From: Candidatus Aminicenantota bacterium
Lineage (GTDB): Bacteria > Acidobacteriota > Aminicenantia > Aminicenantales > CALLJL01
NCBI GenBank assembly: GCA_026416195.1
Contig: JAOAFQ010000190.1
Span: 1-34,337 of the forward strand
Reading direction: 5' to 3'
DNA: 34,337 nucleotides
The position numbers and the translations under genes were made by a program. Below are positions 10,006 through 13,650 of this stretch, in pieces. Positions within the stretch are counted from its first letter, which is position 1; each line of letters begins with the position of its first letter. The notes under the pieces were generated by a model that saw nothing but the letters and a program-made list of their open reading frames with translations, was not told the DNA's origin and searched no databases.

Positions 10006-10287
10006 ATGGTTATCGGACTACTCTTGATTGAAATTCATTTTCCTCATTCTACTTCACTTAAGGAAAAACGAGCAGCGTTATCTGGATTTAAGGAAAAAAT
10101 TAGAAACCGTTTTAATGTAGCTTTAGCCGAAGTAGCCAACCAAGATAAATGGCAGCTGGCTTCGCTTGCTTTTGTCACCATAAATAATGAAAAAGATATC
10201 GTTGATCAAACTCTCGAAAAAATCATTCAAGAAGCTGAAATAAACCTTGAAGGTGAAATTATTCATTCGAAGATTGTTCATCTCTAA
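10006..10287 (+). CDS. DUF503 family protein (YlxP-like)
   Basis: This 93-residue protein has the DUF503/YlxP pattern: an N-terminal beta strand MVIGLLLIEIHFPHS, then SLKEKRAALSGFKEKIRNRF and a mixed alpha/beta remainder. The family sits between infB and rbfA in many bacteria, exactly as here. It is thought to take part in ribosome maturation or translation, but its biochemical role is not settled. It starts 6 bases after the infB stop and 20 bases before rbfA, clearly within the operon. Confidence 0.88.
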   Translation: MVIGLLLIEIHFPHSTSLKEKRAALSGFKEKIRNRFNVALAEVANQDKWQLASLAFVTINNEKDIVDQTLEKIIQEAEINLEGEIIHSKIVHL

Positions 10288-11643: not shown

Positions 11644-12564
11644 ATGGATATAGAGTCTCTTCTCTTGGTAGATAAGCCAAAAGGCTGGACATCTCATGAT
11701 GTGGTTGATTTTCTGCGACAACTAACCGGTTGGAAAAAAGTTGGCCATTTTGGTTCCCTTGACCCCTTAGCCACCGGCCTCCTTCTGCTTGGAATCGGCC
11801 GAGCTACCCGACTCTTCCCTTTTCTCTCAAGGCAACCCAAAGTTTATCAAGGCATAATTCGCCTTGGTCTGGCTACAGATACTTATGACGCTGATGGCAA
11901 GCCGATCTCACTTCCCTCTTCCCATCTACCCACAGAAAATAAATTAAAAGAAATAATAAAGTCATTTGAAGGTGAAATCGAACAATTACCACCTCCCTTT
12001 TCGGCTAAAAAGCATAAAGGGAAACCCCTTTATCAGTTAGCAAGAAAAGGTCAGCCCGTTCTGAGAAAGCCCGTAAAAGTCAGGATTTACGAATTCCAGA
12101 TTATTAGCTACAGGCCACCTGATTTATCTTTTCTCATTGCCTGTAGTTCCGGCACTTATATCCGAAGTTTGGCCCATGATTTAGGTCAAATCGCTGGCTG
12201 TGGGGCCCATCTAGCTCAACTTGTGCGTCTCGCCATCGGTCCATTTAGGCTGGAAAAGGCTTTCTCCCCGGCTCAAATTGAAGAATATTTCAAGAAAGGC
12301 CAGATCTATTCCCTCCTTTGTCCATTAGAAATGATTTTGGAGAATCTGTCTAAAGCTATCTTGACAGAGAAGATTAATTTGCCTCTAGCCAGGGGTCGAG
12401 CGATTCCTCCTCATTTTATTAAAGTTATTCTTCCCCCAACTCAGGAAATTTTAACTTACGAGGAAGAAAAGGTAATCCGTCTCTTCTCTTTTGAAGGCCG
12501 ATTTCTCGGTTTGGCTCGTCAAGCCACCAAACCAGGTTATCTTATCCCCTTTTTGCTCATTTAA
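11644..12564 (+). CDS. truB: tRNA pseudouridine(55) synthase TruB
   Basis: TruB isomerises U55 in the T-arm of tRNAs. The catalytic Asp is Asp40 in GHFGSLDPLATG, preceded by the typical VDKPKGWTSHDVV. CSSGTYIRSLAHDLG, another TruB landmark, follows near residue 170. A C-terminal PUA-like region completes the 306 residues. It lies 23 bases after nrnA without an obvious Shine-Dalgarno sequence, so translation may depend on reinitiation. It belongs to the nusA operon. The downstream genes normally seen in such operons (ribF, rpsO, pnp) are replaced by DUF507 genes. Confidence 0.96.
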   Translation: MDIESLLLVDKPKGWTSHDVVDFLRQLTGWKKVGHFGSLDPLATGLLLLGIGRATRLFPFLSRQPKVYQGIIRLGLATDTYDADGKPISLPSSHLPTENKLKEIIKSFEGEIEQLPPPFSAKKHKGKPLYQLARKGQPVLRKPVKVRIYEFQIISYRPPDLSFLIACSSGTYIRSLAHDLGQIAGCGAHLAQLVRLAIGPFRLEKAFSPAQIEEYFKKGQIYSLLCPLEMILENLSKAILTEKINLPLARGRAIPPHFIKVILPPTQEILTYEEEKVIRLFSFEGRFLGLARQATKPGYLIPFLLI

Positions 12565-12618
12565 ACCACGTCTATTTTGAACCTAGATTTTTTGGGATCA
12601 GTTTTAAGAGATTTTGAC

Positions 12619-12656
12619 TTCAAGTTCTTGAATTTTCGGCCTGGGTGGTGTATTTT
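12619..12656 (+). promoter_or_regulatory. Possible internal promoter overlapped by an inverted repeat
   Basis: A candidate -35 TTGAAT (12628-12633) is followed by a 17-base spacer and a weaker -10 TATTTT (12651-12656), directly before the DUF507 pair. A perfect inverted repeat TTCAAG-TT-CTTGAA (12619-12632) covers the -35 and could be an operator. The predicted start would be about 4 bases before the ATG at 12667. Both elements are short, so chance is possible. Confidence 0.35.
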
Positions 12657-12666
12657 TAAATACAAG

Positions 12667-12945
12667 ATGAGGCTGAACAGGAATCAAATTGAACATATGG
12701 CTTCGGTTATTGTCAGGAACCTTATTCGCGAAGAGAAGATTCTAGTCGATGATAAGACTAAGCTAATTGATGAAATAATCAATCTAATCCAAGAAGAATT
12801 TATTAAAGAAGATCAACTTGACCAGGAAGTGAGAGAAATCCTGAGTAAACACATGGAGAAAATCCGTCGGGAAAATATTGAATATCAAACCATGTTTCGC
12901 ATGATTAAAACTAAATTGGCTAAAGAAAGGAATATAGTTCTGTGA
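12667..12945 (+). CDS. DUF507 family protein, divergent paralogue A
   Basis: This 92-residue protein opens MRLNRNQIEHMASVIV and matches the DUF507 N-terminal pattern (MRLs...I..LA..I...L). The rest is strongly helical and charged. The family's C-terminal EGSREWxxLYRKYY signature is missing and is replaced by a different helix ending KERNIVL. In-frame sequence runs upstream to a TTG at 12577. I reject that start because homology begins at the ATG at 12667. It overlaps the next gene by 4 bases (GTGA), so the two are translationally coupled. DUF507 has no known function. Identification rests on the N-terminal half and on the adjacent, clearer paralogue. Confidence 0.72.
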   Translation: MRLNRNQIEHMASVIVRNLIREEKILVDDKTKLIDEIINLIQEEFIKEDQLDQEVREILSKHMEKIRRENIEYQTMFRMIKTKLAKERNIVL

Positions 12946-13232
12946 GTAATCGCCTTTCTAGGGAAAAAATCAACTATCTAGCTCGCCTCATTCTTGATCA
13001 TCTGAGAAAAAGCGAACAGGTTGAATTTATTGACGAACCCAATGAGATTCGTTTGTCTATTGTCCATTCCATAGAAGAAGAATTAAAACTTTATGAGGCT
13101 CTGGATAAAAAGGCAGTAGAAAAAATTAGAGCTCAAAAAAAGCCGATAGAAGAAGGCAGTCGGGAGTGGGAAATTCTTTACAGAAAATATTATAACGAAG
13201 AGCTTGCAAAACTCGGAAAAATTGTCGACTAA
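12942..13232 (+). CDS. DUF507 family protein, canonical paralogue B
   Basis: This 96-residue DUF507 protein carries the family's landmarks: N-terminal RLSREKINYLARLILDHL and C-terminal EGSREWEILYRKYYNEEL. It is predicted to be helical and soluble. The GTG start lies within the stop of paralogue A (GTGA at 12942-12945). It is followed by a thioesterase gene that overlaps it by up to 29 bases in another frame. Function is unknown. Its place at the end of a translation operon hints at a ribosome- or RNA-related job, but that is association only. Confidence 0.85.
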   Translation: MSNRLSREKINYLARLILDHLRKSEQVEFIDEPNEIRLSIVHSIEEELKLYEALDKKAVEKIRAQKKPIEEGSREWEILYRKYYNEELAKLGKIVD

Positions 13233-13650
13233 TCCTTATCTTGAGGTTCCTGAATTTCCAGTAGAAATAGAGGAAAGAGTCCGCTATTCGGAAGTTGATC
13301 GTTTTGGAGTGGCTCACAATAAGCATTACTTTGAGTGGTTTGAGATAGGACGAACCGAATATTGTCGCCAGAAGGGCCTTCCTTATAAAGAAATTGAAGA
13401 AAAAGGCTATGTTTTGGTCGTAGTAGAAGCCTTTTGTCGCTATCGACGACCACTTCGCTATGACGAGCGATTTATTATCCAAGTTGCCTGTTGCGAAGCC
13501 AAACCTAGGAAAATAGTTTTTTCTTATCGACTGATCAGCCTAGATCGATCAACAATTATCGCTCAAGGCTATACTATTCATGTCCCGGTTAATTTTAAGG
13601 CTGAAGTGACCTCTCTTCCCGATGATATTTTAACCTATCTTTATCGCTAG
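13204..13650 (+). CDS. Acyl-CoA thioesterase of the YbgC/4HBT hotdog family
   Basis: This protein is a hotdog-fold thioesterase predicted to hydrolyse acyl-CoA (or acyl-ACP) thioesters. The active-site segment VRYSEVDRFGVAHNKHYFEWFE matches the YbgC-type pattern (V.Y.E.D..G...H..Y...FE), with Asp32 as likely catalytic residue. The start is uncertain. TTG at 13204 is preceded by GAAGAG and overlaps DUF507-B by 29 bases. A second TTG in frame at 13222 would shorten the overlap. No in-frame ATG precedes the domain. It is the last gene of the nusA operon; a promoter for the next gene follows. Substrate is not predictable. Confidence 0.85.
   Translation: MQNSEKLSTNPYLEVPEFPVEIEERVRYSEVDRFGVAHNKHYFEWFEIGRTEYCRQKGLPYKEIEEKGYVLVVVEAFCRYRRPLRYDERFIIQVACCEAKPRKIVFSYRLISLDRSTIIAQGYTIHVPVNFKAEVTSLPDDILTYLYR

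Follow-up and report, generated by a model that had tools for sequence, protein, structure and literature searches.

DUF507 proteins are best known from AaDUF507 of Aquifex aeolicus (O67633; PDB 8T8K and 8T8L), a 183-residue single chain with pseudo-twofold symmetry between two homologous halves, residues 1 to 91 and 92 to 183, which is monomeric by SAXS (PMC10439177). The protein in 8T8K has a Y-shaped fold with one arm per half, and to its base, a four-helix bundle, each half contributes helix 1 and the beginning of helix 2; a pocket for an unknown ligand is formed at the junction of helix 1 of the N half with the final two helices of the C half (PMC10439177). Members of ∼90 residues, the short architecture, are described as C-half-like forms only, and are proposed to self-dimerize (PMC10439177). 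DUF507 has a fold of its own, and PMC10439177 cites a listing of it among essential families whose function is unknown. Our literature search on DUF507 found no functional paper apart from the crystal structure.

Genes A and B and their immediate neighbors

We analyzed a 34,337-nt stretch of DNA (the window) from a Candidatus Aminicenantota bacterium, in which a preliminary description had placed two adjacent DUF507 genes, here called A and B, behind truB, with a GTGA overlap between them and a thioesterase gene overlapping B. The coordinates and the PF04368 scores confirm this arrangement:

11644-12564, + strand: truB, upstream neighbor and last gene of infB-DUF503-rbfA-DHH-truB (TIGR00431, 222.5 bits)
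12565-12666, + strand: 102-nt gap between truB (stop at 12564) and A
12667-12945, + strand: gene A, DUF507 N half and putative subunit (ATG start, TGA stop, 92 aa)
12942-12945, + strand: GTGA, 4-nt overlap of the A stop and B start, read from the sequence
12942-13232, + strand: gene B, DUF507 C half and putative subunit (GTG start, 96 aa, carrying EGSREWEILYRKYY)
13204-13650, + strand: YbgC/FadM-type acyl-CoA thioesterase (4HBT), downstream neighbor (TIGR00051, 77.1 bits)

The thioesterase open reading frame overlaps B by 11 to 29 nt, according to the choice of TTG start, and a scan of the 102-nt truB-A gap against shuffled sequences found no promoter or terminator above chance. Comparison with a same-genus genome gave a dN of 0.028 and a dS of 0.92 for A, and a dN of 0.039 with saturated dS for B; this strong purifying selection shows that both genes are real. 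Both products are near neutral, with pIs of 6.75 (A) and 6.21 (B). Although the pair was at first regarded as an uncharacterized small system, a crystal structure from its family has already been published (PMC10439177).

A and B match different halves of DUF507

Against PF04368 (DUF507; model length 182 positions, curated cutoff 24.7 bits), A scores 56.4 bits over positions 1 to 93 and B scores 68.2 bits over positions 95 to 181. Both are above the cutoff, which settles in the affirmative whether A is a DUF507 protein, and together they span the whole model. The long architecture, in which a single ∼180-residue chain contains the two halves, is absent from the window, which has two genes instead. 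The same division is seen with the 8T8K chain, to which A aligns at residues 2 to 92 (E = 6.9e-10) and B at residues 96 to 182 (E = 2.7e-10), each scoring ∼37 to 39 bits higher with its own half than with the other. Homology between A and B can still be recognized (26% identity, E = 2e-6). From these alignments, A and B are the front and back halves of one known DUF507 protein, not two copies, and each is the ortholog of a single half of the one-chain form.

The suggestion that A has lost a C-terminal signature kept by B is not upheld. EGSREW belongs to the C-type half, and is absent both from the Aquifex N half and from the N-type proteins examined here, and A has an equally conserved arm of its own, with a tail in which N70, E72, Y73, Q74, M76, F77, K81, L84, A85, and E87 are invariant in 40 Aminicenantes sequences. 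A never carried the EGSREW signature, and nothing was lost.

Structure predictions bear on the two proteins unequally. The AlphaFold model of B has three helices (residues 7-23, 33-63, and 74-95; pLDDT 89), in agreement with the three-helix half as the repeated structural unit of DUF507, and in a Foldseek search 8t8k is its best and only significant PDB match (probability 1.00, E = 2.8e-4). The prediction for A alone is less certain: helices are placed at residues 5-21 and 30-87, with the arm helices merged into one long helix (pTM 0.55), and the best fold match is again 8t8k, with a probability of 0.96, an E value of 0.23, and an rmsd of 18.

In a phylogeny built from 90 half sequences, 44 of the N type and 46 of the C type, the branch dividing N from C has 100% SH-aLRT support, and the Aquifex halves fall on the matching N and C sides; the sequences are short, and much inside each half is unresolved. 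Because the two types split with full support, Aquifex halves included, the N/C duplication is ancient, predating the split of the Aquifex and Acidobacteriota genes, and is not a local tandem duplication.

Conservation and fusion of the split pair

A survey for coupled DUF507 genes shows that relatives have kept both the pair and its overlap. In a first set of loci, two of which are the window itself, A is 92 aa throughout and the overlap is 4 nt in all but three, where it is 1 nt. All 79 Aminicenantes loci of named records overlap, 61 by 4 nt and 18 by 1 nt. More broadly, 67 of 159 Acidobacteriota genomes that are at least 90% complete have DUF507, and by position the halves are adjacent in 56, fused in 6, and unlinked in 5; many Acidobacteriota in the sample are without both genes. 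Both half types are present in all 67 positive genomes. Among the unlinked genomes, which belong to families f21, f42, and f34, the halves are 400 kb apart on one contig in G068 and on different contigs in G108 and G143. In the other two, G086 and G097, the Pfam model detected B only, and a broader N-type profile located an A-type gene of 87 to 88 aa elsewhere in the genome (whole-genome E = 2.6e-4 and 8e-5, respectively); these two genes are 54% identical to each other, that of G097 scores higher with the N profile than with the C profile, and that of G086 is matched by the N profile only. The divergent N-type DUF507 genes of family f34 that the Pfam model missed (L187:4392-4655 and L188:4244-4510) both immediately precede the same carboxylase-like gene. 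In eight DUF507-negative genomes neither half profile scored more than marginally and, since the positive genomes keep both types, the N and C halves are gained and lost together. Among the 80 matches retained from a scan of genome contigs for loci in other phyla there were only Aminicenantes-type loci, and a plasmid search for the pair gave no match; the split or fused state outside the Acidobacteriota is taken here from Aquifex and PMC10439177.

The six fused genes are single-chain forms from Acidobacteriota families f14 and f38 (L140, L141, and L143 to L146). In a concatenated tree the Acidobacteriota fusions are nested within split forms, with the split pair of G075 placed, at modest support, among the fusions. 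At the codon corresponding to the A stop, all three f38 fusions (L144, L145, and L146) have TGG, one change from TGA, and all three f14 fusions have TCC, while G074 and G105, in which the adjacent halves share a frame with one stop between them, have TGA or TAA in frame at the same site. These codons suggest that fusion in the Acidobacteriota arose when adjacent genes in one frame lost the intervening stop, and that this was independent of Aquifex; fission may be the alternative direction between fused and split forms.

Genomic neighborhoods

The order infB-DUF503-rbfA-DHH-truB-A-B is conserved across Aminicenantes. In 53 of the 75 Aminicenantes loci with enough flanking sequence truB is no more than 400 nt upstream of A, and in about a quarter of the Aminicenantes loci the distance exceeds 1 kb. 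An SNF (sodium:neurotransmitter symporter) gene of ∼500 codons is found between truB and A in several Aminicenantes loci (L035, L045, L064, and L176). The DUF503 gene, at 10006-10287 of the window between infB and rbfA, is likewise small and uncharacterized, and the operon retains it across Aminicenantes. The thioesterase gene is not a conserved partner: of 74 Aminicenantes loci, just 24 have it next to B.

Neighbors elsewhere are diverse. A sigma-70 factor accompanies the pair together with SelB in families f27 and f53, and together with a CT398-like zinc-ribbon protein in f14 and f38, with metG also in f14; in other classes we find TPR proteins (f17 and f28), PPDK (f8), trigger factor (f11), and lptC/lptD-like genes (f13), and the f18 loci have no neighbor gene common to all. 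In f34 and f42 (L153, L154, L150, and L152) gyrB-gyrA lies ahead of B, and A is elsewhere in the genome. No neighbor is constant across the Acidobacteriota classes, and the translation-gene neighborhood is not conserved beyond Aminicenantes. Thus, of the conservation in relatives anticipated at the outset, that of the pair extends beyond Aminicenantes to other Acidobacteriota, whereas that of the truB/rbfA neighborhood is restricted to Aminicenantes; the place behind translation genes is peculiar to that lineage and says little about function.

A and B as a candidate heterodimer

A and B are the N and C halves of one DUF507 encoded by two overlapping genes, and we infer that they bind each other as a heterodimer rebuilding the Y-shaped fold, a reading to which we give a probability of about 80%. 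Translational coupling across GTGA would yield A and B in a 1:1 ratio, and the two chains would fold on each other, with helices 1 and 2 of A packing against helices 1 and 2 of B to form the four-helix base that is intramolecular in 8T8K, and with A and B each supplying an arm that has a distinct conserved tail. In a lone half the two base helices would have their hydrophobic face exposed, so that neither is likely to be functional alone. The pocket, lined by both halves in 8T8K, would sit between the subunits in the split form, and the pair is probably a two-armed clamp or adaptor whose cleft or base-arm pocket takes up a ligand or partner.

This reading draws on the half-specific profile and PDB matches, the N/C split in the tree, the natural fusions, the conserved overlap, the retention of both halves even when they are unlinked, and the 8t8k fold matches of the B and A models; most of these features likewise support the earlier proposal of a translationally coupled heteromeric pair. 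Counting against it, 4-nt overlaps are common in bacterial operons, the A genes of family f34 are divergent, and the model of A alone merges the arm helices. Covariation between A and B by mean-field DCA was too shallow (119 pairs, effective number 53), and the top 60 couplings are not richer in interchain pairs than chance.

A frameshift or an assembly error within a single full-length gene would also leave two halves, and the change of frame here does fall exactly on the domain boundary. The comparative data refute it: the same split and overlap recur in 79 of 79 Aminicenantes loci and in most other positive Acidobacteriota, and both halves start at a codon of their own and show strong purifying selection, leaving such an error with a negligible probability. 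Another possibility is that A and B are independent short DUF507 proteins, each homodimeric. The fold is pseudo-twofold symmetric, A and B are homologous, and dimerizing short forms of ∼90 residues have been proposed (PMC10439177). However, A and B match different halves, every positive genome retains both even when they are unlinked, and the 1:1 coupling and repeated fusion favor a heterodimer; we consider homodimers highly unlikely.

The pair could also act in ribosome assembly or RNA maturation, a role suggested by its position behind infB-rbfA-truB, and as a function this is compatible with a heterodimer. The conserved gene order across Aminicenantes speaks for it, as do translation-related neighbors elsewhere, namely selB in f27 and f53, trigger factor in f11, and metG in f14. 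Yet the truB/rbfA context is Aminicenantes-specific, other classes having a sigma factor, selB, gyrB-gyrA, TPR, lpt, and other genes, with no neighbor common to all; truB is >1 kb away in about a quarter of the Aminicenantes loci, several with the SNF gene between; the near-neutral pIs are atypical for RNA-binding proteins; and many Acidobacteriota do without both genes. Some neighbors are translation genes, but none is constant, which leaves a weak link to ribosome or RNA maturation, and such a role seems quite unlikely. The pair is a two-gene version of a known family, for which a heterodimer of N-type and C-type subunits is the best reading.

A residue switch at the putative ligand pocket

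In an ungapped alignment, Glu140 of the 8T8K pocket corresponds to residue 51 of B, a Tyr in the window. At this position all 89 Aminicenantes pairs have Tyr (83) or Phe (6), whereas the 30 pairs from other Acidobacteriota classes all have Asp (19) or Glu (11). Tyr/Phe versus Asp/Glu is a lineage mark of Aminicenantes at a possible binding site, and in the literature we did not find an earlier description of this class-level switch at B51. A bolder and rather doubtful extension is that short DUF507 proteins are obligate N/C heterodimers that interconvert with the single chain by fusion and fission, and that the subunit-straddling pocket was retuned in the Aminicenantes ancestor, from an acid to Tyr/Phe at B51, to give a small-molecule-responsive clamp with a changed ligand. 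The switch offers a concrete residue for ligand-binding tests, and with two separate genes each arm can be tested individually. If short members are half-subunits with a partner, A should be expressed and assayed with B, in place of B alone as a homodimer.

Comparison with known DUF507 proteins

AaDUF507 and the window pair correspond almost without gaps, residues 1 to 91 with A and 95 to 181 with B, and they have in common the helix plan of B and the ancient N/C duplication; they differ in that AaDUF507 is one chain and the window has two genes. The fused proteins of families f14 and f38 have the same two halves in the same order as the window pair, but in one open frame with no stop between them, and in f38 the linker begins exactly at the position of the A stop. 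The short DUF507 proteins resemble B in length and in similarity to the C half, but whereas they are suggested to self-dimerize (PMC10439177), each short C half here has a short N-half partner.
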